Assembly (NCBI RefSeq): GCF_027531545.1
Contig: NZ_JAPZSC010000059.1
Coordinates: 1-57,233 of the forward strand
Direction: 5' to 3'
DNA length: 57,233 bases
From: Silanimonas sp.
GTDB taxonomy: Bacteria > Pseudomonadota > Gammaproteobacteria > Xanthomonadales > Xanthomonadaceae
The notes under the pieces are model-generated. The model saw nothing but the letters and a program-made list of their open reading frames with translations, made no database searches and had not been told where the DNA came from. Numbering within the stretch: position 1 is the first letter of the stretch; every line of letters begins with the position of its first letter. Positions 6,333 through 42,222 of the stretch are shown here, one piece after another. The translations under genes and the position numbers were made by a program.

Positions 6333-6434
6333 GGAAACTCTCCGTGGGTGGGTGCCCGATCGCCGGCGGCGAAGGGCCTGTTGCCACGGTAAGGCCCGCA
6401 CCATTCCTGATTAATCGGGGGAAAATGGAATTAC

Positions 6435-6453
6435 TATTCGCACGATACGAATA
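6435..6453. promoter_or_regulatory. Palindrome, candidate LysR operator
   Basis: TATTCG and CGAATA form a perfect inverted repeat with a 7-base spacer, in an A/T-rich stretch between the divergent SDR (start 6332) and LysR (start 6475) genes. It fits the size of a LysR recognition site and lies where autoregulation would be expected, about 22 bp before the regulator's start codon. A second short palindrome, GATTAATC, is at 6409-6416. Confidence 0.6.
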
Positions 6454-6474
6454 ATCAATCCGGGAGCGGCGCGC

Positions 6475-7413: not shown

Positions 7414-7432
7414 GGGAAAGAGGACCCGGGCC

Positions 7433-8587: not shown

Positions 8588-8590
8588 GGC

Positions 8591-28054: not shown

Positions 28055-28422
28055 ATGCCCTGGACCCTCGGACTGCTGATCGCTTTCAGCTTCTCCAGCG
28101 CCGGTGACCGCTTCGAGACGCGCCGGCACTCGCGGGTTCGCTGGCAGCCACCGAAGCGCAGCAGGCGCGCATCTGAGCGGCCGTCAACGCGGCACTCGAG
28201 CAGAAGGGCCAACCGGCCCTCGTAGCGATGCTCGCGACCTTCCTCGCGGGCCACGGCCGCGGCCTGAGCGGCCGGCGCAGTCCGTTGCATACCGTGGTCT
28301 TCGTCCTCGTCATCAGCGGGACGATCTACAGCATCGTCGAGCTGGAGTACCCGCGCCTCGGCTTCGTGACGATCAAGGATGCGGACGTCGTGTTGGCCGA
28401 GGTGCGCGGGATGATGCGCTGA
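28055..28422 (+). pseudogene. Decayed bestrophin-like/DUF4239 membrane protein gene
   Basis: ATG 28055 opens a frame with MPWTLGLLIAFSFSSAGDRF, which resembles the N-terminal TM and basic loop of DUF4239 proteins. After about 25 codons the similarity moves to another frame, which reads LAATEAQQARI, then TGA where the family usually has Trp, then AAVNAALEQKG. The same frame ends with a TM (HTVVFVLVISGTIYSIVEL) and EYPRLGFVTI before TGA 28422, like the family's C-terminal end. A frameshift, a stop codon and a shortened middle mean it is not functional. The 448-bp stretch 27985-28432 holds nothing else that I can support. Confidence 0.55.
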
Positions 28423-28432
28423 GCCGCGGTGC

Positions 28433-29011
28433 TCAGCGCACGACGGCGTAATCGCGCGCGTTCTCGCTCCAACGCGGCGTCTCGCGGATGCGCGGCAGCA
28501 CCTCGTCGACGCGCTCCACCATCGACCACATGGCGGCATGCTCGGGGTTCATGAAGCGCTCGTCGATGACCTTCCGCATGAAGGCCTGCAACCCTTCGTA
28601 GAAGCCGTTGACGCTGAGCAGCACGATCGGATTGAAGTAGAGGCCGAGGCGCTTCAGGGTGATGGCCTCGAACAACTCCTCGAGCGTGCCGCAGCCCCCG
28701 GGAAGGGCGATCACCGCATCGCTGCCGGTCAGCAGCCGATGCTTGCGCTCGCGCATGTCCTCGACGAGCTCCAGCGTCGTGACGCCCGGGTGGCCCCATT
28801 CCAGGTCGACCATGAACTTCGGGATGATGCCGATGACCTCGCCACCCTCGGCGATGGCGCCATCGGCGAGTGCGCCCATCAGGCCCTGGCCGCCGCCGCC
28901 GTACACCGTGGTGCAGCCGGCCCGGGCCAGCGTGGCGCCGAGTTCGCGGGCCGCGGCGAGGTAGACGGGATCGACTTTGCCGCTCGAGGCGGCGTAGACA
29001 CAGATGCGCAT
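28433..29011 (-). CDS. LOG family protein (cytokinin riboside 5'-monophosphate phosphoribohydrolase-like)
   Basis: A 192-residue Rossmann-fold LOG protein. It has the nucleotide-binding GGGGQGLMG loop and the diagnostic PGGCGTLEELFE motif with its catalytic Glu/Arg set (also MRERKHRL). Family members cleave the N-glycosidic bond of AMP-type nucleotides, which releases cytokinin bases in some bacteria, or act in general nucleotide salvage. Start ATG 29011 begins at MRICVYAASS, the family start. It is convergent with the decayed gene before it and divergent from the HU gene. Confidence 0.94.
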   Translation of the reverse strand: MRICVYAASSGKVDPVYLAAARELGATLARAGCTTVYGGGGQGLMGALADGAIAEGGEVIGIIPKFMVDLEWGHPGVTTLELVEDMRERKHRLLTGSDAVIALPGGCGTLEELFEAITLKRLGLYFNPIVLLSVNGFYEGLQAFMRKVIDERFMNPEHAAMWSMVERVDEVLPRIRETPRWSENARDYAVVR

Positions 29012-29077
29012 GGCGGTATGGCAACAGGCCGATTCGCGCGCGTCAACGGCTGCAGACGGGGGCATTCGGCGGCCGGC

Positions 29078-29122
29078 GCAAAAAAAAGTGCGGTTTTTTT
29101 CGCGCGGGGGCTCACTTTTTGC
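29078..29122. promoter_or_regulatory. A8/T7 homopolymer block with nested inverted repeats
   Basis: Between the divergent LOG and HU genes lies a run of A8, then GTGCGG, then T7, with CACTTTTTGC about 13 bases on. GCAAAAAAAAGTG and CACTTTTTGC are complementary apart from three extra A. It stands out in an otherwise G/C-rich region. It could be a curved or nucleoid-protein-binding promoter element for the HU gene, or a hairpin in its leader. Confidence 0.5.
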
Positions 29123-29217
29123 GGCGTTTCAGGCGAGGATTGGCAAGTCCGAGCCGACCTGCGGGTCGCCGGGCCGGTCCCATTGCCGATCCACGGAACC
29201 TCACGAGAACCCATCAC

Positions 29218-29616
29218 ATGGCAACGAAGAAAGCAGTCAAGAAAGCTCCGGCCAAGAAGGCCGCCCCGAAGAAGGCCGCCAAGGCCGCCCCGGCAGCGCC
29301 GAAGGCCATCAAGGACACGCTGAACAAGACCGGCCTCGTCGCGCACATCGCCGAAGCCGCTGGCGTCGCCGCCAAGGACGTCCGTGGCGTGCTCGCCGCG
29401 CTCGAAGGCGCCATCGTCGGTTCGCTCAACAAGAAGGGCGCCGGCCAGTTCGTGCTGCCGGGCCTGCTGAAGATCACCTCGGTGAGCGTGCCGGCCAAGC
29501 CGAAGCGCAAGGGCATCAACCCGTTCACCAAGGAAGAGCAGTGGTTCGCCGCCAAGCCGGCCTCGACCAAGGTCAAGGTGCGTCCGCTGCGCAAGCTGAA
29601 GGCCGCTGCGGAGTAA
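29218..29616 (+). CDS. HU-family DNA-binding protein with histone H1-like N-terminal tail
   Basis: A 132-residue nucleoid protein. The first 30 residues are a lysine/alanine/proline tail (MATKKAVKKAPAKKAAPKK) like the C-terminal arm of histone H1 or AlgP. The rest is an HU/IHF fold (IKDTLNKTGLVAHIAEAAGV, then LEGAIVGSLNKKGAGQFVLPG and the beta-arm region PAKPKRKGINPFT). It binds DNA with little sequence demand and the tail should strengthen or condense binding. ATG 29218 is the only sensible start. A terminator follows at 29670. It is probably strongly expressed. Confidence 0.94.
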   Translation: MATKKAVKKAPAKKAAPKKAAKAAPAAPKAIKDTLNKTGLVAHIAEAAGVAAKDVRGVLAALEGAIVGSLNKKGAGQFVLPGLLKITSVSVPAKPKRKGINPFTKEEQWFAAKPASTKVKVRPLRKLKAAAE

Positions 29617-29669
29617 TCCCGCGCGCGCCGCGGCTCGGCGCCGATCGCGGCGCAGTCGCCAGAAAGCCG

Positions 29670-29706
29670 AACGGCCGGTCCCTCGCGGGGCCGGCCGTTC
29701 TCGTTT
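29670..29706 (+). terminator. Terminator after the HU gene
   Basis: AACGGCCGGTCCC and GGGGCCGGCCGTT form a 13-bp stem with one G-T pair and a 4-base loop, followed by CTCGTTT. It ends at the stop of the convergent DUF2238 gene and could serve both directions. Confidence 0.88.
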
Positions 29707-30365
29707 CAGCAGGTTCGAGGAGGGGCTTCCCACCCGGCCCGCTGGAAGGACAACGCGGTTGCGGCGATCACGCTGCCGAGCAAGGCCAGCGCCATGTCCT
29801 TCTGCGCGTCCCAGACGTCACCCTGGGTGCCGAGGAAGGCCATGCGCAGGTCGCCACCGAACACCAGGGCCGCGCCCCACTCGATCAGTTCGTAGAGCAG
29901 GGAATGCGAGGTGACGAAGCCCACGGCCAGCAGCCATCGCCAGAGGCGCGTGGTGGGCGCCCGCGCATCGACGATGTCGAAGACCGCCGGAGTGGCGAGC
30001 AGGCCGTAGAGGAAGTGCACGAGCCGGTCGTAGTGATTCCGTTCGACGCCGAACGCTGCCCCGGGCGAGAACCCGAGCCACGCCTCGCACCAGTCATCGA
30101 TCGGCACCTCCGAATAGGTGTGGTGCGATCCAATGGCATGGAACACGAAGAAGACGAACAGCGCGATGTAGCTGCTGTCCCGCAGGCGCAGGCGCGAGGA
30201 CGCCCACACCAGCAGCGGGATCGCGACGAAGACCAGCACGTTCTCCAGCCACCAGTCCGCACGGTGCTTCGGGGCGACGGCCAGGGCACCCCAGATGAGC
30301 CCGTAAACGGCGAGGAGCACCGCCGGAACGGTGCGCGTCGATGCAGGGGAAGGATGATTGGCCAA
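29706..30365 (-). CDS. DUF2238 family membrane protein (YjdF-like)
   Basis: A 219-residue inner-membrane protein with about six TMs. Family marks are the His/Tyr cluster in loop 3 (GSHHTYSEVPIDDW), YDRLVHFLYGLL, SHSLLYELIEW and the end motif GTQGDVWDAQKDMALALLG. The function of DUF2238 is unknown. Met1 at 30365 opens a short Ser/Thr/Pro leader before TM1. It is convergent with HU and shares its terminator. About 200 bp of less G/C-rich sequence (30366-30563) without a gene separates it from the next operon. Confidence 0.9.
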   Translation of the reverse strand: MANHPSPASTRTVPAVLLAVYGLIWGALAVAPKHRADWWLENVLVFVAIPLLVWASSRLRLRDSSYIALFVFFVFHAIGSHHTYSEVPIDDWCEAWLGFSPGAAFGVERNHYDRLVHFLYGLLATPAVFDIVDARAPTTRLWRWLLAVGFVTSHSLLYELIEWGAALVFGGDLRMAFLGTQGDVWDAQKDMALALLGSVIAATALSFQRAGWEAPPRTC

Positions 30366-30563
30366 GAGAAGATCCGCCGATCGTGAGGTGGATGACCAGG
30401 CTCGTCAGAAGCCGGGTGGCAAGGAGCTATAGAACGATGTTCTTGGTTTTCTGACGCCGGGCTAGAAGCATCCCCGCCCGCTGGCCATTTGAATGCCGAG
30501 AAGCAGGCCTGTCCAGAATCAAGCGCTTTATCGTTTTGGGAGCGAGTTCAACAATGCCGGGCG

Positions 30564-31484
30564 CTATCGCCCCCTTCGGATGGCATCGGCGAGATAGTCT
30601 GCGAGCACCCTGACCCGCGCAGAGAGGTGGCGGTTCTGCGGATACAGCACGTGGAAGGAGCGCGAGCGGCCACCGGCACCTTGCAGCACTTCCACCAGCT
30701 GTCCGTTGCGCACCGCTTCCCTCGCCACGAAGTGGTAGATCTGAAATAGCCCCCCTCCCGCGATGGCCCACCCGACGCCGGCCAGCACATCCTCATGCAC
30801 GCGCTGTCGGCTCTTGAAGGTGAGGTCGATGTCTTCGCCCGCCGCATTGCGGAAGATCCAAGGCATGGGTCTGCCCGTGCTGGGCAGTACGAACTGAATG
30901 AGATCGTGCGTTGCGAGGTCCTCCAGCGTGCGCGGCTTGCCCTTGCGTCGCAGGTAGTCGGGCGCGCCGAATACGCCGACGCTCGCCTCTTCCAGCTTGC
31001 GCGCCACGAGGCGTGAATCCCGCGGCTCGCCCAGGCGTATCGCCAGGTCGTAGCCGTCCTCCACGAAGTCGATGTTCCTGTTGGAGACGTTGAGCTCGAC
31101 TTCCACGCCCGGATAAGCCGCCATGAAACCGGGCAACAAGGGCACAATTCGGTGGTGGCCGTAGAGCGTGCCCACGCTGACGCGAACCAGCCCCTTCGGC
31201 TCGCTTTGCTGGCCAGTGATGGCGCGCTCCGCCTCCGCAATCTGCTCCAACGCTTGCTGACACTCCGCGCGGTAAAGCTCGCCGTCGCTGGTCAAGCGCA
31301 CGCTGCGGGTGGTGCGAGTGAAAAGCCTTACCCCGAGCCGCGCTTCCAGTCGGCTGATCGAGCGGCTCACCGAGGCCGGCGTGACGCCCAGCATCTCGGC
31401 GGCCGCGGTGAAGCTGCCCATCTCGGCCGCCTTGCAGAACAGCTCGATGCTGCCGAGTTGTACGGGGTCGAACTGCCGGGCCAT
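30564..31484 (-). CDS. LysR family transcriptional regulator of the electrophile-defence operon
   Basis: A 306-residue LysR regulator. The winged helix is at about 8-65 (FCKAAEMGSFTAAAEMLGV, then SRSISRLEARLGVRLFTRT), followed by the effector domain (LVARKLEEASVGVFGAPDYL, then YPQNRHLSARVRVLADYL). It is divergent from the seven-gene operon starting at 31603 with 118 bp between, the usual position of a LysR activator and its target. It is of the CrgA-like branch, and such proteins sense small electrophiles or aromatic compounds in several bacteria. The effector here is unknown. I could not identify a clear operator in the gap. Confidence 0.93.
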   Translation of the reverse strand: MARQFDPVQLGSIELFCKAAEMGSFTAAAEMLGVTPASVSRSISRLEARLGVRLFTRTTRSVRLTSDGELYRAECQQALEQIAEAERAITGQQSEPKGLVRVSVGTLYGHHRIVPLLPGFMAAYPGVEVELNVSNRNIDFVEDGYDLAIRLGEPRDSRLVARKLEEASVGVFGAPDYLRRKGKPRTLEDLATHDLIQFVLPSTGRPMPWIFRNAAGEDIDLTFKSRQRVHEDVLAGVGWAIAGGGLFQIYHFVAREAVRNGQLVEVLQGAGGRSRSFHVLYPQNRHLSARVRVLADYLADAIRRGR

Positions 31485-31602
31485 TTATTCACCGATGTAA
31501 GTAAAGAAGTTCCTATGATCCAGTTTATCGGCACAAATGGACTCAATGAAGTCGCCGCCCAAGGGCAAAACGCCCCTTCACCCGAGTCTGCTTTCCCTCT
31601 GA

Positions 31603-32457
31603 ATGACCATGAAAAACCTCTTCAAAAAGGCCCTCCTTTCCGCCGCCGCATTGGGCCTATCCACACTGTCCTGGGCAGCGCCGGCGCCCAAAGGCGAAGT
31701 CCTCGTGGTGCTGTCCAGCGAGACGGCCTTGCCGTTGCGTGATGGAAAGACCTTTCCCTCCGGCTACTACCTCAACGAGTTCGGCGTGCCTGCCGATGCA
31801 CTGCAGCGCGCCGGCTACCGGCTGACGGTCGTCACGCCGCGCGGGAACCGGCCGCAGGCCGACCAGCGCTCGGTCGATCCCCAGTACTTCCGGGGCGACG
31901 CGCGGGAGATGGAGCGAATCGCTGGCGTGGTGGAACAACTCACCCAGGCCGACCAGATCAAATCGCTACCCGAGGTACTTGAGTCAGGGCTCGATCGTTA
32001 TGCGGCCGTGTTCATCCCCGGCGGCCACGCGCCCATGATCGATCTGGCCAACAATCCGCTGGTCGGCCACGTGCTTCGCCACTTCAATGCGAATGGCAAG
32101 CCCACCGCCGCGATCTGCCATGGCCCTATCACTCTGTTGGCCGCCCAGGACGATCCGCAGGGCTACGAGCGCAGCTTGGGCAATGCCGACGCGGGCCGCG
32201 CCCAGAATTGGATCTACAGCGGCTATCGCATGACCATCTTCGCGGATGCGGAAGAGGCGGCCTTCGAGGCATCGCTCAACGGCGACAGACTGCGCTATTA
32301 CCCGGCACGCGCCATGGCAACCGCCGGTGGCGACCTGCGGTTCGCAAAGGCTTGGGAGCCCCACGTTGTCGTGGACCGCGAACTCATCACTGGACAGAAC
32401 CCCTTCTCCGACCACGCACTGGCCCAAGCGCTGATCGCGGCGTTGGCTGAGCGCTGA
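31603..32457 (+). CDS. Secreted DJ-1/PfpI-family protein (Hsp31-like)
   Basis: A 284-residue type 1 glutamine-amidotransferase-fold protein with a signal peptide (1-26, LLSAAALGLSTLSWA). Motifs are EVLVVLSSE, FSGYY-type YYLNEFGVPADAL, FIPGGHAPMIDL and the elbow AAICHGPITLL with the catalytic Cys. Bacterial Hsp31-class members degrade methylglyoxal or act as chaperones, but most are cytoplasmic; secretion is notable. ATG 31603 is used, with a second ATG two codons later. It is the first gene of the operon, 48 bp before the YqhD-like gene. Confidence 0.9.
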   Translation: MTMKNLFKKALLSAAALGLSTLSWAAPAPKGEVLVVLSSETALPLRDGKTFPSGYYLNEFGVPADALQRAGYRLTVVTPRGNRPQADQRSVDPQYFRGDAREMERIAGVVEQLTQADQIKSLPEVLESGLDRYAAVFIPGGHAPMIDLANNPLVGHVLRHFNANGKPTAAICHGPITLLAAQDDPQGYERSLGNADAGRAQNWIYSGYRMTIFADAEEAAFEASLNGDRLRYYPARAMATAGGDLRFAKAWEPHVVVDRELITGQNPFSDHALAQALIAALAER

Positions 32458-32505
32458 AACCCCGCATTCCGCCAACAACGCCGCCCACACGTCGAGCTTT
32501 TCACC

Positions 32506-33663
32506 ATGCAGAACTTCAGCTTCCACAACCCCACCGCCATCCACTTCGGCACCGGGGCGATCGCGCAACTGAGTCAGCGCGTGCCGATCAACGCGCGCGT
32601 ACTGGTGCTTTACGGGGGCAGCAGCGCCGAACGCAACGGGACCTTGGCCGAGGTGCGCGAGGCGCTTCACGGTTACCAGTTCCAAGAGTTCGGCGGCATC
32701 GAGCCCAATCCCAGCTACGAAACCTTGATGCGAGCGGTCGAGCAGGTGCGCTCGGAAGACCTCGACTTCCTGCTGGCCGTGGGCGGCGGCTCGGTCATCG
32801 ACGGAACCAAGTTCGTGGCCGCCGCCGTGCCCTATACGCAAGACCCTTGGCACATCTTGGAAACGGGCGGCGCCGAGGTGAGGCAGGCACTGCCCTTTGG
32901 CTGCGTGCTGACGCTGCCGGCTACCGGTTCGGAAATGAATGCCGGCTCCGTGATCACCCGACGCGCCACCCAGGCTAAGCGCGTGTTCCACAGCGCCCAT
33001 GTCTTCCCTCGCTTCAGCATCCTTGACCCGTCCAAGATGGATACGTTGCCGGCCCGCCAACTCGCCAACGGGGTGGCGGACGCCTTCACCCATGTCATTG
33101 AGCAATACCTGACCTACCCGGTCCAGGCACATGTGCAGGACCGATTGGCTGAAGCCCTCCTGCAAACGCTGGTGGACGTCGGACCCCAAGTGCTGGCCGC
33201 CGAGAATGACGCCGCAGCGCGGGCCAGCCTGATGTGGACCGCCACGCTGGCCCTCAATGGCCTCATCGGTGCGGGCGTGCCGCAGGACTGGTCGACCCAC
33301 ATGATCGGTCATGAACTCACGGCGCTGCACGACATTGACCACGCCCGAACCCTGGCCGTAGTGCTGCCCGCCAATCTCAAAGTGCGCCGCAGTGCCAAGC
33401 GCGAGAAGTTGCTGCAGTACGCCGAACGCGTGTGGCATCTGCGCGAGGGCACCGAAGAGGCCCGCATCGATGCGGCCATCCAGCGCACTGAGGACTTCTT
33501 CGAGTGCCTGGGCATCCCCACCCGGCTATCGGCCTACGCGCTGGGAGCCGAAGCGGTGGAACCCATCGTCAAGCAACTCGAGGCCCATGGCCTGACCACC
33601 CTGGGCGAGCGGCGCGACGTCACGCTGGCGCTGAGCCGCCAGATCCTGCAGGCCGCGCTCTGA
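32506..33663 (+). CDS. yqhD: Iron-containing alcohol dehydrogenase, YqhD-like aldehyde reductase
   Basis: A 385-residue group III alcohol dehydrogenase, close in size and motifs to E. coli YqhD. It has the NAD(P)-binding AVGGGSVIDGTKF, TLPATGSEMN and the metal set in GVADAFTHVIEQY (Asp, His) and IGHELTALHDIDHA (two His). YqhD reduces methylglyoxal, acrolein and other short or peroxide-derived aldehydes with NADPH. ATG 32506 is the family start. It lies 35 bp before the second DJ-1 gene. The role in carbonyl detoxification fits the whole operon. Confidence 0.92.
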   Translation: MQNFSFHNPTAIHFGTGAIAQLSQRVPINARVLVLYGGSSAERNGTLAEVREALHGYQFQEFGGIEPNPSYETLMRAVEQVRSEDLDFLLAVGGGSVIDGTKFVAAAVPYTQDPWHILETGGAEVRQALPFGCVLTLPATGSEMNAGSVITRRATQAKRVFHSAHVFPRFSILDPSKMDTLPARQLANGVADAFTHVIEQYLTYPVQAHVQDRLAEALLQTLVDVGPQVLAAENDAAARASLMWTATLALNGLIGAGVPQDWSTHMIGHELTALHDIDHARTLAVVLPANLKVRRSAKREKLLQYAERVWHLREGTEEARIDAAIQRTEDFFECLGIPTRLSAYALGAEAVEPIVKQLEAHGLTTLGERRDVTLALSRQILQAAL

Positions 33664-33698
33664 CGCCGGTCGCATCACACCTTTCCAAAGGAAATTCC

Positions 33699-34391
33699 AT
33701 GACTTCCCGCATCCTGATGATCGTCACCTCCAATGCCCGCATGGGCGACACCGGCAAGCCGACGGGCTTGTGGGCCGAAGAGTTGGCGGTGCCCTACTAC
33801 GCGCTGGCCGATGCCGGCGTCGAGGTCACGCTGGCCTCGCCGGCTGGCGGTCCCGCACCCATTGATCCGGGCAGCCTGAAGCCCGTCGGGCAGAACGACC
33901 CGGTCGTCGAGCGCTTCCTCGCTGATGAAGCCCTGCAAGCCCGGATTGCCGCCACCTCCAGGGCCTCGGAGTTCGACGGCGCCAGCTTTGATGCCGTGTT
34001 CTTCCCGGGCGGCCACGGCACCATGTGGGACCTGCCCGTAGACGCCGGCGTGACACGTGCCGTCGAGCGCGCCTTCGCAGCCCACAAGCTGATCGCCTCG
34101 GTCTGCCACGGCGCGGCAGGCCTTGTCACGGCCAAGCGACCCGATGGGCAGCCCATCGTGAAGGACCTGCGAGTCAACTCCTTCACCGACGCCGAAGAAG
34201 TAGCCGTGGGCCTCGAAAAGGTGGTTCCTTTCATGCTGGAAACGCGCCTGCGCGAACTCGGTGGCCACTTCGAGGGTTCGGCCAACTGGCAAGCCTTCGC
34301 CATCCGCGACGGCCAGTTGATCACCGGGCAGAACCCGCAGTCGTCGCACCTGGTGGCACAACAGCTGCTCAACGCGCTAAAGACCGCATGA
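33699..34391 (+). CDS. DJ-1/PfpI-family protein (cytoplasmic)
   Basis: A 230-residue DJ-1/PfpI protein without a signal peptide. Motifs are RILMIVTSNARM, GLWAEELAVPYYAL, FFPGGHGTMWDL and the nucleophile elbow SVCHGAAGL with the reactive Cys, plus NWQAFAIRDGQLITGQNP near the end, typical of YhbO/Hsp31-type members that handle glyoxals or glycated targets. It is the second such protein of this operon, and the first is secreted, so the pair may cover both compartments. ATG 33699 has a GGAAA ribosome site. Its stop overlaps the Dps start (ATGA at 34388). Confidence 0.9.
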   Translation: MTSRILMIVTSNARMGDTGKPTGLWAEELAVPYYALADAGVEVTLASPAGGPAPIDPGSLKPVGQNDPVVERFLADEALQARIAATSRASEFDGASFDAVFFPGGHGTMWDLPVDAGVTRAVERAFAAHKLIASVCHGAAGLVTAKRPDGQPIVKDLRVNSFTDAEEVAVGLEKVVPFMLETRLRELGGHFEGSANWQAFAIRDGQLITGQNPQSSHLVAQQLLNALKTA

Positions 34392-34888
34392 GCATGAAGG
34401 GCGCCACCCCAATCCACAGCGTGCAGATCGGCATCAGCGAGCACGACCGCGTCGCCATCGCAGTGGGCTTGTCACACCTTCTCGCGGACACGTACACGCT
34501 GTACCTGACCACCCACAACTTCCACTGGAACGTAACGGGACCCATGTTCATCAGCTTGCATGGGATGTTCCAGACCCAGTACTCGGAGCTGTGGAGCGCC
34601 GTCGACCCCATCGCAGAGCGGATTCGCGCGCTTGGGGCCAAGGCGCCCGGCAGCTACGCGCAGTTCCAGACACTGACGTCGGTACCCGATGTGCCGAGCC
34701 AACCCCCCACAGCACTCGAGATGGTTCGCATCCTCATGCAAGGCCATGAGACGGCGGCCCGCACCGCGCGCGGCCTTTTCTCCGTGGTCGAACAAGCGGG
34801 CGACCAACCGAGCGCAGACCTTCTGACTCAGCGCATGGACAACCACGAGAAGAACGCCTGGATGTTGCGCAGCCTTCTGGAAACCTGA
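34388..34888 (+). CDS. dps: Dps family DNA-binding ferritin-like protein
   Basis: A 166-residue Dps protein. The intersubunit ferroxidase site is visible in THNFHWNVTGPMFISLHGMF, which carries the first histidine and the ligands of the next, followed by YSELWSAVDPIAERIRALGA with Asp/Glu ligands. Dps binds and oxidises Fe2+ with H2O2 and can protect DNA. Start ATG 34388 overlaps the upstream stop by 4 bases, giving translational coupling; a second ATG at 34394 is possible. It adds iron and peroxide handling to the operon's carbonyl defence. The N-terminal Lys-rich tail of E. coli Dps is absent. Confidence 0.93.
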   Translation: MSMKGATPIHSVQIGISEHDRVAIAVGLSHLLADTYTLYLTTHNFHWNVTGPMFISLHGMFQTQYSELWSAVDPIAERIRALGAKAPGSYAQFQTLTSVPDVPSQPPTALEMVRILMQGHETAARTARGLFSVVEQAGDQPSADLLTQRMDNHEKNAWMLRSLLET

Positions 34889-34897
34889 CCAATTGAC

Positions 34898-36004
34898 ATG
34901 GCATCCCTCTTCGAACCCCTGCGCTTGAAAGACGCGGTCCTGCGCAACCGCATCGGTGTGCCTCCGATGTGTCAGTACATGGCCCAAGACGGTCTGGCCA
35001 ACGACTGGCACCACGCGCACTACACCGCGCTGGCGCGCGGCGGAGCCGGACTGATCACCGTCGAGGCGACCGCGGTGTCGCCCGAGGGCCGGATCACACC
35101 AGCCTGCCTTGGCTTGTGGAACGACGCCCAGGCCGAACCGCTGGCACAGATCGCACAGTCGATCCGGAACGCCGGCGCGGCTCCCGGTATCCAGATTGGA
35201 CACGCCGGCAGGAAGGCTTCCGCCCACCGCCCTTGGGAAGGCGACGACCACATCCCCGAGGGCGATGCCACCGGCTGGCAACCGATCTCGCCCTCAGCCC
35301 TCGCCTTCGGCGGCCAACTGGGCCGGGTGCCGCGTCCCATGAGCCTCGATGACATCCAGCGCGTACAGCAGGATTTCATCGCCGCGGCCAGCCGGGCGCG
35401 GGATGCCGGATTCGAGTGGCTTGAACTGCACTTCGCTCACGGCTACTTGGGCCAGAGCTTCTTCTCCACGCATTCAAATGCGCGTACCGATGCCTACGGG
35501 GGCAGCCTTGAGAACCGCGGCCGCTTCCTCGTCGACACGCTGCGCGCAGTGCGCCGCATTTGGCCCGAGCGACTTCCGCTGACGGCCCGCTTTGGGGTCA
35601 TCGAGTACGACGGCGACGACGAGCGCACGCTGGCCGACTCGATATCGCTGACTCGCCGGTTCAAGGCGGAAGGCCTGGACCTTCTGAGCGTCAGCGTCGG
35701 CTTCTCCGCACCAGACGTTCAGGTGCCCTGGGGCCCAGGCTTCCTCGGCCCGGTCGCGGCTCGTGTACGCAGAGAAACAGGCATCCCGGTGTCCTCGGCT
35801 TGGGGCTTCGAGAACCCCGCGGTGGCGGAGGCCGCCATCGCCAAGGGGCAACTCGACGTCGCCCTTGTAGGGCGTGCGCACCTCGCCAATCCGCATTGGC
35901 CCTATGCCGCGGCGCGAGCGTTGGGCATCGACCATGCGGCACGTGTCCTTCCTGCGCCTTACGCGCATTGGCTCGAACGTTACCAACCCCGCCTTGCCGA
36001 TTGA
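34898..36004 (+). CDS. NADH:flavin oxidoreductase, Old Yellow Enzyme (YqjM/XenA type)
   Basis: A 368-residue TIM-barrel flavoenzyme. PPMCQYMA near residue 23 is the YqjM-class cysteine motif, and HAHYTALARGGAGLITVEAT, GIQIGHAGRKAS, ELHFAHGYLGQSFFS and NARTDAYGGSLENRGRF are standard. It reduces activated double bonds (enones, maleimides, nitro compounds) with NAD(P)H and FMN. It starts 9 bp after Dps and is followed 15 bp later by the ABM-VOC fusion. It fits the electrophile-detoxifying theme of the operon. Confidence 0.94.
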   Translation: MASLFEPLRLKDAVLRNRIGVPPMCQYMAQDGLANDWHHAHYTALARGGAGLITVEATAVSPEGRITPACLGLWNDAQAEPLAQIAQSIRNAGAAPGIQIGHAGRKASAHRPWEGDDHIPEGDATGWQPISPSALAFGGQLGRVPRPMSLDDIQRVQQDFIAAASRARDAGFEWLELHFAHGYLGQSFFSTHSNARTDAYGGSLENRGRFLVDTLRAVRRIWPERLPLTARFGVIEYDGDDERTLADSISLTRRFKAEGLDLLSVSVGFSAPDVQVPWGPGFLGPVAARVRRETGIPVSSAWGFENPAVAEAAIAKGQLDVALVGRAHLANPHWPYAAARALGIDHAARVLPAPYAHWLERYQPRLAD

Positions 36005-36019
36005 TCGGTTGCCTCCGTC

Positions 36020-36832
36020 ATGACCATCCATGTCTTTGCCACGTTGCGCGCTTTGCCCGGATTCGAACACGAGCTTCACGACGCGCTCCGAGCACTCGCA
36101 GCGGCCAGCCGAGGCGAAACAGGCAACGAACGCTATGAACTGTTCCTCGAGGAGGGCCAAGCAGGAGTGTTCCACCTCATCGAGGCCTATCGCGACGACG
36201 ATGCCCTGGCCGAGCATCGAAAGACGGTGCACTACACGGCCTACCGCGAGCGAACCCGCAAATGGTTGATCGCGCCGCCAACAGTCCGGATCCTCCGAGA
36301 GGAAGGAATTGAGGAAGGGGCGCCTCTCGCAAGCGCAGGCTTCGCTCCAATTGCCGCCGAAGCGGGCGCTGCGATCCCGCCGGCGCGTGCCGTGAAAAAC
36401 GGTGCCAATCCGCGATCCGGCCTTTCGATGCTCCCGCTGTTGCGGATCGACCACGTAGCGATCATCTGCAGCAACTTGGAGGCGTCGCGGGCGTTCTACG
36501 CCGACATCCTCGGGTTTCCGGTCGTGTCGGAACTCGACCGACCGAGCCGCCAATCCAGAAAGCTCGATCTCCTAGTGCCCGGCGGCGGCAGGCTGGAGTT
36601 GTTCTCGTTCCCCGAGACGCCCCCGCGGCCGTCATACCCGGAGGCCTGTGGCCTTCGCCATCTCGCATTCGCCGTCGCCGACATCGACGCAGCCATTGCT
36701 TGGCTTGCTCGGCATGGTGTCGACGTCGAAGTGCTCCGAATCGACGAAGGAACGGGAACGCGATTTACGTTCTTCGCCGATCCCGACGGACTGCCTCTGG
36801 AGCTTCACGAACGGACAGAGGCCGCTTTTTGA
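36020..36832 (+). CDS. ABM-VOC fusion: antibiotic-biosynthesis-monooxygenase plus glyoxalase-like domain
   Basis: A 270-residue two-domain protein. Residues 1-95 are an ABM dimeric alpha-beta barrel (MTIHVFATLRALPGFEHEL, then RYELFLEEGQAGVFHLIEAY and HRKTVHYTAYRER), as in YgiN quinol monooxygenase. A linker rich in Ala/Pro (about 96-138) leads to a VOC domain (140-270) like the GloA2/YaeR group, with metal ligands His in RIDHVAI, Glu in RLELFSF, His in LRHLAFA and Glu in PLELHER. It could oxidise quinols and clear the product. The fusion is unusual; in other genomes the two parts are commonly separate. It lies between OYE and the royal-jelly-type gene. Confidence 0.85.
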   Translation: MTIHVFATLRALPGFEHELHDALRALAAASRGETGNERYELFLEEGQAGVFHLIEAYRDDDALAEHRKTVHYTAYRERTRKWLIAPPTVRILREEGIEEGAPLASAGFAPIAAEAGAAIPPARAVKNGANPRSGLSMLPLLRIDHVAIICSNLEASRAFYADILGFPVVSELDRPSRQSRKLDLLVPGGGRLELFSFPETPPRPSYPEACGLRHLAFAVADIDAAIAWLARHGVDVEVLRIDEGTGTRFTFFADPDGLPLELHERTEAAF

Positions 36833-36861
36833 AATCCTTTAATCCTCCAAGAGTCCTCGAC

Positions 36862-38031
36862 ATGCATCTAAAGCAGCAACTCATTCTTCCAAGCCTCATC
36901 GCACTCATGTTCGCGCCCACCGTCGCGCTGGCACAGGACGACGGCGAGCTTCCCAGCGCCCGAACGATCGGAAACATCGAGGCTGTCGCCACCTTCCATG
37001 ACGCCATGCCGACGGGCGTCACCGTGTCCGAGGGCGGCCGGATATTCGTCAACTTCCCGCGCTGGGGCGACGACGTGCCGTTCACCGTGGCAGAACTTCG
37101 CGACGGACGCGCGGTCGCCTATCCGAACGCATCGATCAATCATGGCGACACAACCCAACCCGAAAAGACCTTCCTCAGCGTCCAGAGCGTCGTGGCCGAT
37201 GGACGCGGCCGCCTGTGGATCCTCGACACCGCAGCACCAAACTTCTCTGCGCCGGTGCGACGCGGTGCCAAGCTGGTCGCCATCGACCTCGCAAGCAACC
37301 GAATCGAACGCACGTACATTTTCCCCGAGAACGTCATCGACGAGACAACATACGTCAATGACATGCGGTTCGACTTCAGAGTCGGCAAGCAGGGCGTTGC
37401 CTACGTGACCGATTCCTCGCCAACCGGGACGGGCGGCATCATCGTGCTCGACCTGGACAGCGGGCAGGCGATCAAGCGGCTCGTCGGCCATCACTCCACG
37501 TCGGCGGATCGGTCGTTCACGCCCATCGTCGAGGGCCAGCGACTCATGAACCGCGCCCCCGACGGCACAGCGACACCGTTCACAATCGCGTCCGATGGGA
37601 TTGCGCTCTCACCGGACGGAAAAACGCTCTACTTCTCGCCGTTGTCCAGCCGGCGCCTCTACAGCGTTCCGACAGAGCTCCTGCGCAATGCCTCGATCGA
37701 TGACGCCACGCTCGCCAAAGCCGTCGAGGACCTTGGCGACAAAGGGGCATCCGACGGGCTCGAATCAGATGCACTCGGCAACGTCTATGCCGGCGACTAC
37801 GAACACAATGCGATCCACCGCCGAACCCCCGCAGGACAATGGTCGACGCTTGCCGCGGATCCACGCATCCTCTGGCCGGACACTCTTTCGGTCGGACCGG
37901 ATGGTTTCCTGTACTTCACTGCGAATCAACTGCATCGCCAAGCAGGATTCAACGGAGGCGAAGACAAACGGCACAAGCCCTACGTTCTCTTCCGTACTCG
38001 CGTGGATGCCTTGCCGGCACCTACCCGTTAG
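36862..38031 (+). CDS. Secreted major royal jelly/yellow-family protein
   Basis: A 389-residue beta-propeller protein with a signal peptide (1-22, ILPSLIALMFAPTVALA). It matches the MRJP/yellow family: FVNFPRWGDDVPFTVAEL near residue 54, VADGRGRLWILDTAA, TYVNDMRFD, YVTDSSPTGTGGIIVLDL, SPDGKTLYFSPLSSRRLY and GDYEHNAI. Insect members bind small amines or take part in melanin chemistry (dopachrome conversion), and bacterial members are of unknown role. It closes the operon, 29 bp after the ABM-VOC gene. The G/C content and codon use of this end of the operon look lower than in nearby genes. Confidence 0.92.
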   Translation: MHLKQQLILPSLIALMFAPTVALAQDDGELPSARTIGNIEAVATFHDAMPTGVTVSEGGRIFVNFPRWGDDVPFTVAELRDGRAVAYPNASINHGDTTQPEKTFLSVQSVVADGRGRLWILDTAAPNFSAPVRRGAKLVAIDLASNRIERTYIFPENVIDETTYVNDMRFDFRVGKQGVAYVTDSSPTGTGGIIVLDLDSGQAIKRLVGHHSTSADRSFTPIVEGQRLMNRAPDGTATPFTIASDGIALSPDGKTLYFSPLSSRRLYSVPTELLRNASIDDATLAKAVEDLGDKGASDGLESDALGNVYAGDYEHNAIHRRTPAGQWSTLAADPRILWPDTLSVGPDGFLYFTANQLHRQAGFNGGEDKRHKPYVLFRTRVDALPAPTR

Positions 38032-38163
38032 TGGGACCGATCGGCGCAAGCGGGGCTAGGCAAGGCGCTCGCCCGTCGCCGGGGCGGCGCCTCCTCGAGC
38101 AGGGTTCTTGCCTTCAACCGCCTTCGTTCATCAACGACCTTTCGGCTTCGGACCTCCCGGACA

Positions 38164-39990
38164 CTACTCCACCGTCACTGACTTCGCGAGGTTGCGCGGC
38201 TTGTCCACATCGGTGCCGCGCGCCAGCGCGGTGTGGTAAGCCAGCATCTGCACCGGGATCGCGTGCACGACCGGCGAAAGCGGCCCGACGTGGCGCGGCG
38301 TGCGGATCACATGGACGCCGTCCTCCTCGCCGAATTGGCTGTCGGCGTCGGCGAAGACGAACATCTCGCCGCCGCGGGCGCGCACTTCATGGATGTTCGA
38401 CTTCACCTTCTCGAGCAACGCGTCGTTCGGCGCAATCACCACCACCGGCATCTCGGCGTCGACCAGCGCCAGCGGGCCGTGCTTCAGCTCACCGGCCGCG
38501 TAAGCCTCGGCGTGGATGTAGGTGATTTCCTTGAGCTTGAGCGCGCCTTCCAGCGCGATCGGGAAGTGCAGGCCACGACCGAGGAACAGCGCGTGGTCCT
38601 TGGTGGCGAACGCTTCCGCCCACGCCGCGATCTGCGGCTCGAGGTTGAGCGCATGCTGCACGCTGCCCGGCAGGTGGCGCAGGGCGTCGACGTACCCCGC
38701 TTCCGCCGAGGCATCGAGGCGGCCGCGGGCCTTGGCGATCACCAGCGCGAGCGCGAACAGCGCCACCAGCTGGGTGGTGAAGGCCTTCGTCGAGGCCACG
38801 CCGATCTCGGCGCCGGCGCGGGTGAGGAACTGCATCGCCGACATGCGCGGCAGCGCGCTCTCGGCCACGTTGCAGATCGAGAGCGTGCGGTGGTGGCCTT
38901 CGCCGATGGCGTACTTCAGGGCCTCGAAGGTGTCGAGCGTCTCGCCCGACTGCGAAATGGTGACGACGAGGTTGCCCGGATTCGGCACGATCGGGCGGTA
39001 GCGGTACTCGCTGGCGATGTCGACGGCGCAAGGCACGCCGGCGATCGCTTCGATCCAGTAGCGCGCCACGAGGCCCGAGTAGTAGCTGGTGCCGCACGCG
39101 AGGATCTGCACGCCGGTGACGCCGTCCATAAGCACGGCGCCACGCGGCCCGAACAGCGCCGGGACGAAACCGGTTTCGAGGATCGGCTCGAGCGTGTCGG
39201 CGATGGCGCGCGGCTGCTCGTGGATCTCCTTCTGCATGAAGTGGCGGTACGGGCCCAGCTCCAGTGAGGCCAACGAGACGCCGGACACCTGCTCCTTGCG
39301 CTGCACAGCGGAGCCTTCGGAGTTGAACACGCGCACGCCGTCGCGCTTCACTTCCGCCACGTCGCCTTCGTCGAGGTAGATCACGCGGCGCGTCTGTGCG
39401 ACGACGGCGGACACATCCGAAGCGACGAAGGCCTCGCCCTGGCCCACGCCGATCAGCAGCGGGCAGCCCATGCGCGCGGCGACCAGGCGCGAGGGATCGG
39501 ACTTGGCGATGATCGCCAGCGCGTAGGCGCCGCGCAGCTCCTTCACCGCGGCCTGCGTGGCCGCGAGCAGGTCGCCGCTGGCGCGCAGGTGGTGGCGGAT
39601 GAGATGCGCGACCACTTCTGTGTCGGTCTGCGAGGTGAACACGTAGCCCAGCGCCTTCAGGCGCTCGCGCTGCTCCTCGTGGTTCTCGATGATGCCGTTG
39701 TGCACCAGCGCGAGTTCGCCGTCGCTGATGTGCGGGTGGGCATTGGCTTCGGTCACGCCACCGTGCGTGGCCCAACGCGTGTGGCCGATGCCGATGTGCG
39801 CGGCCAGCCCTTCGGCGGCGGCGGCGGCTTCCATCTCGGCCACGCGGCCGGTGCGGCGCACGCGCTTCAGTTCGCCGTCCAGCACGGCCACGCCGGCCGA
39901 GTCGTAGCCGCGGTACTCGAGACGCTTCAATCCATCGACCAGCACCGGCACGACATCACGACCGGCGATCGCTCCAACGATTCCGCACAT
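38164..39990 (-). CDS. glmS: Glutamine-fructose-6-phosphate aminotransferase (isomerizing) GlmS
   Basis: A 608-residue enzyme, the usual family length, that makes glucosamine-6-phosphate from fructose-6-phosphate and glutamine, the first step to UDP-GlcNAc. The glutaminase domain begins with Cys after Met1 ([13 protein letters not shown]), with RGYDSAG and HTRWATHG. The two SIS domains hold [19 protein letters not shown] and [12 protein letters not shown] 39990 is chosen because processing to Cys2 is required; the open frame upstream is not translated. In relatives glmS lies close to glmU; here the sigma54 export module lies between them. Confidence 0.97.
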
Positions 39991-40099
39991 TGAGTAGCGC
40001 TCCACAGAAATCCGAAGGCGCACAGTGTAGCGGCCGTGAAGGCAGCGGCATGGCGCGACGACGGTGGAATTCTGTCCACGCGCAGGCGCCCCCAACCTT

Positions 40100-40131
40100 C
40101 CGCGGACACCGGCCGGACGGCCGCGGACACC
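40100..40131. promoter_or_regulatory. Paired direct repeat, candidate activator site of the sigma54 module
   Basis: CCGCGGACACC occurs twice, at 40100-40110 and 40121-40131, exactly 21 bp apart (two helical turns). A related inverted half-site, TGTCCACG, begins at 40073. The pair lies about 45-75 bp upstream of the -24 element, where an NtrC-type activator binds. The cluster encodes such an activator, so self-regulation is likely. Confidence 0.6.
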
Positions 40132-40156
40132 CCATGAGCACCGCAAAGCACTGATT

Positions 40157-40169
40157 TATCGAATAATTG
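40157..40169. promoter_or_regulatory. IHF-like site
   Basis: TATCGAATAATTG matches the IHF consensus WATCAA-N4-TTR except for one base. It lies between the activator repeats and the sigma54 promoter, the place where IHF normally bends DNA to bring the activator to the holoenzyme. Confidence 0.5.
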
Positions 40170-40172
40170 TGC

Positions 40173-40190
40173 TTGGCACGCGGCGTGCTA
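40173..40190 (+). promoter_or_regulatory. Sigma54 (RpoN) -24/-12 promoter of the ABC/two-component module
   Basis: TTGGCACGCGGCGTGCTA has GG at 40175-40176, GC at 40187-40188 and exactly 10 bases between, and it matches TTGGCACG-N4-TTGCW apart from one base. The start would be near 40200, about 24 bases before the adaptor gene. The downstream operon ends with a sigma54 activator and its kinase. Confidence 0.85.
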
Positions 40191-40223
40191 AGGAAGAGCC
40201 ATTCCCTCACGACGTCCGCGCCG

Positions 40224-41477
40224 ATGATCCCCGACACGTCCGCCCAAGACCGTACCGTCGCCGCGCCGAAGCGCCGCCTGCCGTGGCCCGCCATCGGCGC
40301 CACCGTCGGACTCGTGGCGGTGCTGGTGGCGGTTTGGGCCTGGGCCGGCGCCGGCCGCTCGGTGAGCGCCGACCGCCTGCGTATCGCCACGGTCGAGCGC
40401 GGCTTGCTGGTGCGCGACGCGCAGGTCAACGGCCGGGTGGTGGCGTCGGTGAGCCCGACGCTGTACGCGCCGGCGGCGTCGACGGTGAACCTGAGGACGC
40501 GCGCCGGCGCCACCGTGAGGAAGGGCGATGTGCTGGCCACGCTCGACTCGCCGGAGCTTCGCGCCGAGCGCGACCGCGAGCTCGCGACGCTGCGCGGCTT
40601 CGAGGCCGACGTGGCACGCCAGCGCATCCTCGCGCAGAAAGCGCGACTGCTCGCCGCGCGCACCGCCGACGAGGGACGCCTCGCCCTGCAGACGGCCCAG
40701 CGCGACGCCGAGCGCACGGCCCGAGCCTGCGAGCTGCAGGCCATCCCCCGCGCCGACTGCCTGCGCTATGCCGATGCGGTGGAAGCGGCGCAGGTGCGCG
40801 CTCGCCACAGCGAGGCCGATGCCGGTCTCGAAGGGCAGAACGCCGCGTTGGAATTGAAGAGCCGCGAGGAGGCCTTGGCCCGCCAGCGCGCCGTGGTCGC
40901 CGACCTCGAGCGCCGCGTCAGTGACCTCGATCTGCGCTCCCCGGTCAACGGCATCGTCGGCAGCATCGCCGTCGCCGATCGCGCGGTCGTCCCCGCGAAT
41001 GCGCCGCTGATGACCGTGGTCGATCTCTCGCAACTCGAAGTGGAACTCGAAGTGCCGGAGACCTACGCCGACGACCTCGGTCTCGGCATGCGCGTCGAAG
41101 TGCGCATCGGCGCCCAGAACGTCGGCGGCGAGCTCATGACCATCGCGCCCGAAGTCCTGAACCGCCAAGTCCTTGCGCGCGTCCGCCTCGACGCACCGCC
41201 GGAGGGCCTTCGCCAGAGCCAGCGCGTCAGTGCCCGCGTGCTGATCGAGGAGAAACCCGATGTGCTGAAGCTGGCACGCGGCCCTTTCCTCGAAACCCAA
41301 GGCGGCCGCTTCGCCTACGTGATGGACGGCGGCGATGCCGTGCGCCGGCCCATCAGCGTCGGCGCCACCGCCGTCGGCGCCATCGAAATCGTCGAAGGGC
41401 TGCGGGAAGGCGAGCGCGTGGTCATAGCCGGCACCGACCTTTTCGAAAACGCTGAACGCGTGCAAGTCAACGAGTAG
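40224..41477 (+). CDS. HlyD/MacA-type periplasmic adaptor
   Basis: A 417-residue adaptor with an N-terminal TM (about 20-45, AIGATVGLVAVLVAVWAWA). Two lipoyl halves (LYAPAASTVNLRTRAGATVRK and DLRSPVNGIVGSIAVADRA) flank a long helical hairpin (about 115-240, ARHSEADAGL and nearby), and a beta-barrel follows (LEVELEVPETYADDLGLGM). It connects the MacB-like permeases to an outer-membrane channel. ATG 40224 is preferred; a TTG upstream (40167) would lie before the sigma54 promoter start. It is the first gene of a six-gene module. Confidence 0.9.
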   Translation: MIPDTSAQDRTVAAPKRRLPWPAIGATVGLVAVLVAVWAWAGAGRSVSADRLRIATVERGLLVRDAQVNGRVVASVSPTLYAPAASTVNLRTRAGATVRKGDVLATLDSPELRAERDRELATLRGFEADVARQRILAQKARLLAARTADEGRLALQTAQRDAERTARACELQAIPRADCLRYADAVEAAQVRARHSEADAGLEGQNAALELKSREEALARQRAVVADLERRVSDLDLRSPVNGIVGSIAVADRAVVPANAPLMTVVDLSQLEVELEVPETYADDLGLGMRVEVRIGAQNVGGELMTIAPEVLNRQVLARVRLDAPPEGLRQSQRVSARVLIEEKPDVLKLARGPFLETQGGRFAYVMDGGDAVRRPISVGATAVGAIEIVEGLREGERVVIAGTDLFENAERVQVNE

Positions 41478-41538
41478 CGCCACGCGGCCTTGCGGCCTCG
41501 GCACCCCTTCCCCTCTCTACCTTCCGACGGAACCCCAC

Positions 41539-42222
41539 ATGCTTACGATGAAACAGCTCTCCAAGGTCTACCAGACCCACATGATCGAGACCCACGCTCT
41601 GCGCGGCATCGACATGGCCGTTCGCGAAGGCGAGTTCGTCGCCGTCACCGGGCCCTCGGGCTCGGGCAAGACCACCTTCCTCAACATCGCCGGCCTGCTC
41701 GAGGAGTTCACCGGCGGCGAGTACCACCTCGATGGCGTCGATGTCCGCGGGCTCGACGACAACCAGCGCTCGCGCCTGCGCAACGAGAAGCTCGGCTTCA
41801 TCTTCCAGGGCTTCAACCTGATCCCCGATCTCAACCTGTTCGACAACGTCGACGTGCCGCTGCGCTATCGCGGCTTCAAGGGGCCTGAGCGCAAGCAGCG
41901 CATCGAGGAGGCACTGGCCAAGGTGGGCCTCGCCTCGCGCATGAAGCACTATCCGGCCGAACTCTCCGGCGGCCAGCAGCAGCGCGTCGCCATCGCCCGC
42001 GCGCTCGCCGGCAGCCCGCGCCTGCTGCTCGCCGACGAACCGACCGGCAACCTCGACACGCAGATGGCCCGCGGCGTGATGGAGCTGCTCGAGCAGATCA
42101 ACGCCGAGGGCACCACCATCGTGATGGTGACGCACGACCCGGAGCTCGCCGCGCGCGCGCAGCGCAACATCCACATCGTCGATGGCCAGGTCGTCGACCT
42201 GCAGCGCCTCGCCGCGGCCTGA
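41539..42222 (+). CDS. ABC transporter ATP-binding protein, MacB type
   Basis: A 227-residue nucleotide-binding domain: Walker A GPSGSGKT, Q-loop FIFQGFNLIP, signature [17 protein letters not shown], Walker B LLLADEPTGNLD and switch MVTHD. It powers the two permeases that follow and the adaptor before it. The start ATG 41539 is the first codon of a clear beta strand (MLTMKQLSKVYQT), with a second ATG at codon 4. It begins 61 bp after the adaptor stop. The transport substrate is not shown by the sequence. Confidence 0.94.
   Translation: MLTMKQLSKVYQTHMIETHALRGIDMAVREGEFVAVTGPSGSGKTTFLNIAGLLEEFTGGEYHLDGVDVRGLDDNQRSRLRNEKLGFIFQGFNLIPDLNLFDNVDVPLRYRGFKGPERKQRIEEALAKVGLASRMKHYPAELSGGQQQRVAIARALAGSPRLLLADEPTGNLDTQMARGVMELLEQINAEGTTIVMVTHDPELAARAQRNIHIVDGQVVDLQRLAAA

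Follow-up and report, generated by a model that had tools for sequence, protein, structure and literature searches.

Positions 30564-38031 of a 57,233-nt stretch of DNA from Silanimonas sp. (assembly GCF_027531545.1, contig NZ_JAPZSC010000059.1; this whole stretch is hereafter called the window) contain a gene for a LysR-type regulator and, divergent from it, a tightly packed run of seven genes that constitutes a candidate carbonyl/electrophile detoxification operon. These seven genes encode two DJ-1-type proteins (DJ1a and DJ1b), a YqhD-like aldehyde reductase, Dps, an Old Yellow Enzyme (OYE), a fusion of an ABM and a glyoxalase-fold (VOC) domain, and a protein of the MRJP/Yellow family (Table 1). 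The seven genes lie on the same strand and are separated by 48, 35, -4, 9, 15, and 29 bp, the negative value denoting an ATGA in which the stop codon of the DJ1b gene and the start codon of dps overlap by 4 bp. All eight proteins exceed the Pfam gathering score for their families (i.e., LysR domains, DJ-1_PfpI twice, Fe-ADH, Ferritin, Oxidored_FMN, ABM plus Glyoxalase in one chain, and MRJP). Open reading frames, stop codons and Pfam matches thus bear out the part list, coordinates, gap sizes and 4-bp overlap of an initial annotation of this DNA, and the gap sizes agree with the operon-like anatomy that it described. With gaps of 48 bp at most, the seven genes are putatively transcribed as one unit; few of the gene starts have a clear upstream ribosome-binding site. 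Internal terminators were sought across positions 30300-38300 and discarded as candidates, as the two weak matches found, both within the ABM-VOC gene, are fewer than the shuffle mean of 5.5.

Table 1. Coordinates and characteristics of the gene cluster and associated features in the window
Feature	Position	Strand	Characteristics
LysR-type regulator	30564-31484	-	Divergent to the putative operon; Pfam HTH_1 + LysR_substrate
Conserved intergenic block	31485-31544		Adjoins LysR start; invariant core ~31486-31528 (TGTAA...TTTAT)
DJ1a, DJ-1/PfpI (HchA-like)	31609-32457	+	Signal-peptide-like N-terminus; C170 in AICHGP, E57
YqhD-like aldehyde reductase (Fe-ADH)	32506-33663	+	D192, H196, H265, H279 at presumed metal site
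DJ1b, DJ-1/Hsp31-like	33699-34391	+	Without signal peptide; C136 in SVCHGAAG, E28
Dps	34388-34888	+	Pfam Ferritin; PDB 8FF9
OYE, XenA/YqjM class	34898-36004	+	XenA 3L5L match
ABM-VOC fusion, YaeR-type VOC (glyoxalase-fold)	36020-36832	+	Pfam ABM + Glyoxalase
MRJP/Yellow-family protein	36862-38031	+	Signal-peptide-like N-terminus; Pfam MRJP 9.5e-32
7758-bp block (LysR + seven genes + about 110-180 bp each end)	30384-38141		Absent from congener G002

Catalytic positions could be matched for four of the encoded enzymes. Both DJ-1 proteins carry a nucleophile-elbow cysteine with an upstream glutamate (C170/E57 in DJ1a, C136/E28 in DJ1b); with scores of 84.3 and 64.1 bits against an HchA equivalog model with a cut-off of 365, they are best classified as relatives of HchA and not as HchA itself. 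The nearest structure for both DJ-1 proteins is PDB entry 1U9C, which matches DJ1b (E 9.4e-54) better than DJ1a (E 2.7e-18). The best PDB matches of the Fe-ADH protein are the YqhD structures 4QGS and 1OJ7 (E about 1e-153; 2.7e-153 for 4QGS), and its score against the NCBIfam YqhD equivalog (599.6 bits) falls slightly under the cut-off of 645; D192, H196, H265, and H279, which we take to be metal-site positions, are identical in alignment to E. coli YqhD. The OYE aligns without gaps across 363 residues to XenA, its best PDB match (3L5L, E 5.1e-179), scores 118 bits against an N-ethylmaleimide reductase model with a cut-off of 403, and has C25, Y27, H178, H181, Y183, and W302, all of them XenA-class positions; the functional meaning that we ascribe to these sites, and to the catalytic positions of DJ1a and DJ1b, is presumed from general background.

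Of the remaining proteins, Dps is nearest to structure 8FF9 ('probable DNA-binding stress protein', E 9.6e-59). In the fusion protein, a linker of roughly 45-60 residues joins an ABM domain, which resembles PA3566, Rv0793, and LsrG more than ArqI, to a VOC domain that scores 169.2 bits against the SMU1112c_YaeR model (cut-off 140) and has 2P25 as its nearest PDB entry (E 4.1e-35). The MRJP protein contains no cysteines, matches 2QE8 (E 1.8e-43) and MRJP1 (5YYL) in the PDB, and has relatives annotated as 'L-dopachrome tautomerase-related'. Eleven of its residues (P88, V107, D122, D167, D184, L207, L266, T271, G299, W338, and D340) are kept in at least 26 of 27 sequences; as a guide to mechanism these were set aside, since none emerges from them, and a single-sequence structure model (mean pLDDT 40.8) was not used for searches. 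Signal-peptide-like N-termini, which were judged by eye, occur in 32 of 35 DJ1a relatives (a set in which L156 and L271 denote one locus; absent from L158, L161, and L162) and in none of 12 DJ1b relatives, suggesting that DJ1a is exported and that DJ1b stays in the cytoplasm.

The cluster sits in a discrete block beside glmS, a feature absent from the initial annotation. In the congeneric genome G002 (contig C46), matches to window positions 28215-30383 and 38142-42000 abut with a 3-bp overlap, such that the 7758 bp between them are missing. This junction lies about 20 bp beyond the glmS stop codon, within an inverted repeat (GGAGGTCCG...CGGACCTCC in G002); the arms of this repeat are 7.76 kb apart in the window (38142-38166 and 30360-30383), and the far arm has drifted (CGGATCTTC versus CGGACCTCC in G002). 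A CGA triplet stands at both ends of the block, the edges of which are uncertain by up to 3 bp. In four further congeners (G001, G004, G005, and G006), a single contig carries both glmS and the next conserved block with no more than 1.2 kb between them, which leaves no room for the insert, and in G003 and G007 the two are found on separate contigs; searches of the seven congeners for DJ1b (E 0.001) and DJ1a (E 1e-50) gave no match. When GlmS was compared with ten named genomes, nine had a match, the best being an unclassified proteobacterial MAG (72%), followed by Herbaspirillum (63%), so that the host's relationships did not emerge clearly from this protein. The G+C content of the block is 0.643; the 10-kb flanks have values of 0.699 and 0.691, and 340 other overlapping window stretches of block length range from 0.652 to 0.724. 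Third-position G+C content (GC3) is 0.70-0.83 in the block genes and 0.86-0.91 in four flanking genes; some other open frames in the window, not all of which are necessarily genes, have GC3 values of 0.70-0.81. The simplest reading of these data is that the block was gained in this lineage, the alternative being that it was lost in all congeners instead.

Tn7 inserts just past glmS, at attTn7, and the block, about 20 bp beyond the glmS stop, occupies this position. Unlike in Tn7, the block ends are not TGT...ACA, and the flanking triplet is the 3-bp CGA rather than a 5-bp duplication; a Tn7-type element was thus rejected, since the block agrees with it in location but not in its ends, duplication length or gene content. 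No transposition genes were found among the eight block genes by Pfam, and terminal inverted repeats were dismissed because the best match at the block ends was equalled or exceeded in 448 of 500 shuffles. Titles and abstract openings of the literature on islands at glmS contained nothing pointing to the window operon. With regard to dps, the Silanimonas genome has a second stretch with 67% DNA identity to the operon gene (G000:C64:88882-89357), and G001 and G005 have short matches (74-76%) in the same part of the dps query, which suggests that the operon dps may be an additional, acquired copy.

To place the cluster in a wider context, relatives of YqhD were sought by a protein scan of 84,980 species genomes, which yielded 414; the best 80 of these, none of them more than 71% identical, were kept, and the other proteins were searched in a phylum sample of 398 genomes. 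At E-value limits of 1e-30 for DJ1b and DJ1a, 1e-20 for MRJP, and 1e-40 for the ABM-VOC protein, matches were found in 101 (DJ1b), 23 (MRJP), 13 (DJ1a), and 40 (ABM-VOC) phylum genomes, counts that include the window's own genome. For ABM-VOC these are matches to the VOC half, the window's own excepted: the ABM half (residues 3-78) is uncovered in all 39 other matches, none of which starts before query residue 96, and none of 54 plasmid records reaches 80% coverage in a search that could overlook fusions with a diverged ABM half. Eighty neighbourhoods were fetched, comprising all 12 other phylum matches of DJ1a, 17 MRJP regions that cover 20 of 28 other places, 40 of the strongest phylum matches of DJ1b, and 11 further DJ1b loci from a 60-relative search. 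Neighbouring genes were labelled by best tblastn match at E 1e-4, so that distant members may have been mislabelled or overlooked.

Subsets of the cluster recur in these neighbourhoods. Within 3 kb and on the same strand, DJ1b accompanies YqhD in 15 of the 80 YqhD loci and DJ1a does so in two; around the 40 DJ1b loci, YqhD was found seven times and an alkene reductase-type OYE five times under the same limits, which also hold for the two cases of an OYE nearest to that of the window (L191, 41% identical; L218, 70%). As none of the 15 DJ1b relatives at YqhD loci and none of the seven YqhD relatives at DJ1b loci is more than 3 kb from the anchor gene or on the other strand, clustering of YqhD and DJ1b appears to exceed chance. 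Individual combinations include LysR/DJ1a-YqhD (L003, L004), DJ1a-YqhD-OYE (L154, and L153, where these genes stand about 1 kb ahead of the OYE), DJ1a-DJ1b-VOC (L152), YqhD-DJ1b-OYE (L145, and L144 with two genes between), DJ1b-OYE (L148, L218), DJ1b-VOC-OYE (L191), DJ1a-ABM (L158, L161), and OYE, YqhD, and DJ1b spaced by 1-2 kb (L192). Neighbours of the relatives also include aldehyde, succinate-semialdehyde or formaldehyde dehydrogenases.

The association between the regulator and DJ1a is closest in the host's own family, for which 316 genomes were sampled (own included). DJ1a relatives occur in 32 of these, the other 31 being 41-46% identical, and loci were obtained for 19 of these 31. A divergent LysR gene stands next to DJ1a in all 19 loci read, and in six of them (L256, L258, L259, L264, L268, and L270) DJ1b sits between the two; these loci, with LysR, a signal-less DJ-1 and a putatively secreted DJ-1, appear to represent a minimal two-compartment pair. 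The recurrence of DJ1a beside DJ1b in six of 19 family loci and in L152 lends support to the two compartments that the initial annotation had proposed. Among the 12 phylum DJ1a loci, five have a divergent LysR, four of which belong to the same family (one of them, G447, is also among the 19); in L151 and L152, both outside the family, a LysR relative precedes DJ1a by about 1.1 kb in the same orientation. LysR relatives with 64-73% identity are divergent to DJ1a in L003, L004, L146, and L147. The nearest NCBIfam model for the window LysR is YafC (205.8 bits, below the cut-off of 470).

The intergenic region between LysR and DJ1a contains a conserved block (31485-31544). In an alignment of the window with Acinetobacter L003, Aeromonas L146, and Pantoea L147 (the near-duplicate L004 was excluded), 20 of its 60 positions are invariant in the four rows, as compared to five in the adjacent 60 nt; 20,000 mononucleotide shuffles, a lenient null to which the neighbouring 60 nt is the better control, yielded a mean of 1.6 and a maximum of nine invariant positions. 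This block, conserved in four genera, is likely to be a LysR site and divergent promoter region.

A differently built operon with several of the same gene types was found on sphingomonad plasmids. Among 40 listed records out of 467 with a match, six plasmid records match the window from DJ1b to MRJP in two pieces (Croceicoccus, two Sphingobium xenophagum plasmids, two Qipengyuania records that are possibly one plasmid, and Sphingopyxis), and annotation was read for three sphingomonad regions. Opposite a divergent LysR, L143 and L281 encode DJ-1, VOC, OYE, MRJP, SDR, ABM, formaldehyde dehydrogenase, and DJ-1, and L278 encodes DJ-1, OYE, MRJP, and VOC. As in the window, a divergent LysR and a leading DJ-1 are followed, in tight order, by an OYE and a putatively secreted MRJP; unlike in the window, YqhD, Dps, and the secreted DJ1a are absent from the three regions. 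In L143 and L278, identities to the window proteins are 52-54% for DJ-1 (DJ1b), 60-62% for MRJP, 39% for OYE, 22-25% for LysR, and 24-28% over part of VOC, and no credible match was found between the ABM of L143 and that of the window; VOC and ABM appear to come from other branches than those in the window. That similar roles are filled partly by different proteins argues for shared function and not for shared descent of the whole, and supports the view that MRJP is a real member of such operons.

The MRJP family is best known from honeybees. In titles and abstract openings of the literature, we found nothing pointing to the window operon, to the sphingomonad operon, or to MRJP in such operons. 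Of the other plasmid MRJP genes, one, on a Klebsiella pneumoniae plasmid (L276), adjoins a zinc-binding alcohol dehydrogenase gene near a gene of the N-acyl homoserine lactonase family, and another has a formaldehyde dehydrogenase gene on one side and on the other a VOC gene, from which an IS1 copy separates it.

Parts of the cluster also have counterparts in characterized electrophile systems. YqhC-YqhD is reported to respond to glyoxal and furfural, and NemR-nemA-gloA to glyoxals, quinones, and reactive chlorine (PMC5297802). Like E. coli nemRA-gloA, the window combines an OYE and a glyoxalase-fold protein in one putative electrophile-responsive operon, and, like E. coli yqhC-yqhDE, it combines YqhD and a divergently oriented regulator (PMC5297802). 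By contrast, nemRA-gloA has the TetR-type NemR, a NemA-class OYE, and a true GloA, with no DJ-1, YqhD, Dps or MRJP, and yqhC-yqhDE has the AraC-type YqhC and an aldo-keto reductase, where the window has a LysR and no aldo-keto reductase. In P. aeruginosa, arqI-gloA2 is reported as the top upregulated operon under glyoxal; its deletion reduces glyoxal resistance and leaves methylglyoxal resistance unchanged, and gloA2, not arqI, restores the phenotype (PMC12274486). Both arqI-gloA2 and the window encode an ABM and a glyoxalase-fold domain together, in the window as one fused chain, with a YaeR-type VOC and an ABM nearer to PA3566, Rv0793, and LsrG. The glyoxal data on arqI-gloA2 support a carbonyl role of the ABM-VOC fusion, even though its VOC is YaeR-type and its ArqI match weak. 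ABM-glyoxalase fusions, not mentioned as published in the initial annotation, are rare and already described, with three architectures and 24 proteins reported to combine ABM and PF00903 (PMC12274486).

Taken together, we propose, with a probability of roughly two in three, that the cluster is a horizontally acquired, LysR-controlled operon for carbonyl/electrophile detoxification in two compartments. This interpretation draws on the recurring gene subsets, on the sphingomonad sister operon, and on the catalytic positions present in DJ1a, DJ1b, YqhD, and OYE, and is in keeping with the electrophile handling previously suggested as the common theme of the cluster. LysR, bound to the conserved divergent promoter block, would sense a reactive carbonyl or its product and switch the operon on. 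Outside the cytoplasmic membrane, secreted DJ1a, similar to Hsp31/HchA, would turn glyoxal-type aldehydes into hydroxy acids; the MRJP beta-propeller, likewise secreted, may bind or convert a reactive compound, perhaps one that is quinone- or dopachrome-like. Inside, DJ1b would do a glyoxalase III-type job, and YqhD would reduce aldehydes with NADPH (reduced nicotinamide adenine dinucleotide phosphate). In the same compartment, the XenA-type OYE would reduce quinones and activated C=C bonds, another oxoaldehyde or an adduct may be the target of the ABM-VOC fusion, and Dps would limit iron-driven damage.

A number of observations weigh against this interpretation. Among the genomes searched, in collections that may omit records very close to the window's own genome, the exact seven-gene order was seen in the Silanimonas window alone, and none of the best 80 of 414 YqhD-relative loci has it. 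The earlier statement that the set is not a recognised module therefore stands for the exact set, which comparison of gene order has located in one genome so far, and does not extend to its subsets and to the functional set in sphingomonads, which recur. No sigma-70-like promoter was matched between 30300 and 38300 (shuffle mean 0.7). Beyond the host's family, a divergent LysR stands beside DJ1a in one of eight phylum loci, and L003, L004, L146, and L147, which lie outside these eight, had been chosen for good match. C17 and C75 of LysR, considered as a thiol switch, are common to five of 29 aligned rows (window included), all close relatives, and were uninformative. None of the 17 MRJP-fetched loci has DJ1a, DJ1b, YqhD or OYE within 3 kb, and MRJP genes on Pantoea and Klebsiella plasmids keep other company. 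The VOC half scores 33.4 bits against the GloA model (cut-off 165), which marks it as YaeR-type and not GloA, and ArqI (8ECP) matches the ABM domain weakly (E 0.059). Finally, the window is the only place in which Dps was seen at 3 kb or less from genes of these types, and two plasmid Dps relatives keep company with oxidant genes, one adjoining a catalase gene and the other lying near ppk1 and a hydroperoxide-resistance gene.

These last observations bear on an alternative, which we consider unlikely, in which the operon responds to peroxide or hypochlorite, with Dps and OYE at its centre and the aldehyde enzymes clearing secondary products. The overlap of the dps start with the DJ1b stop, the settings of the two plasmid Dps relatives, and the response of NemR to reactive chlorine besides glyoxals (PMC5297802) are consistent with it. 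Dps is, however, the sole direct oxidant part, and is confined to the window in this company; the nearest case elsewhere, L023, has a Dps relative (27% identical) on the strand opposite to YqhD, at a distance of about 6 kb, and Pfam assigned none of the eight genes to a catalase, peroxidase or methionine sulfoxide reductase family. The 'oxidant defence' half of the label initially given to the cluster rests mainly on Dps.

Somewhat less probable still is a biotransformation operon through which plant- or pollutant-derived enones, furans, and aromatic aldehydes would be used or modified, beyond mere tolerance. The XenA-type OYE and the dehydrogenases near relatives would suit such a role, which would nevertheless sit poorly with a secreted DJ-1 and Dps; moreover, Pfam identified no acid-forming aldehyde dehydrogenase, ring-cleaving enzyme or transporter among the eight genes. 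A loosely assembled island, in which transferred genes share a promoter without a joint task, would account for the closest relatives of the parts being found in different groups (each below 75% identity), for the unique order, and for the lack of these partners at most MRJP loci elsewhere, and is the least probable of the three, as similar gene types recur together in sphingomonads, partly as distant or unrelated versions.

Other features of the window were noted outside the cluster. A short-chain dehydrogenase gene and a divergent LysR gene (5451-7413) form a second regulator/oxidoreductase pair. For a 1355-residue open frame at 7316-11383, located in G+C-rich sequence with an AT skew of about 0.1-0.2, Pfam gave no match at E 0.001; this frame may be no gene, or an unusual one. 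In the open frame at 11804-12841, the best nitroreductase stretch spans residues 25-58 only, and the gene may be composite or partial, or read in the wrong frame.

Carbonyl/electrophile detoxification in two compartments thus remains the most likely role of a cluster in which the parts are known and their combination is unusual and, in the searched genomes, unique. One regulator would join functions that are separate in E. coli and P. aeruginosa (i.e., YqhD, OYE plus glyoxalase, DJ-1 glyoxalases, and ABM-glyoxalase), and the operon would add a secreted layer. Its more surprising aspects are a putatively secreted MRJP that recurs in a second operon of different build, and the clean block next to glmS. 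A broader generalization, which we offer as a tentative and rather doubtful one, is that MRJP/Yellow proteins of this and the sphingomonad branch are extracytoplasmic electrophile handlers that repeatedly enter LysR/DJ-1 operons, where with a secreted DJ-1 they might form an outer barrier against carbonyls and quinones in front of inner reductases and glyoxalases, and that operons of this sort, moving as compact units that lack a transposase of their own, can settle in the glmS attTn7 region. As MRJP belongs to both the window and the sphingomonad operon, a testable function can be proposed for a bacterial MRJP branch, and the clean glmS block provides a natural presence/absence pair with which the worth of the operon to its host could be measured.

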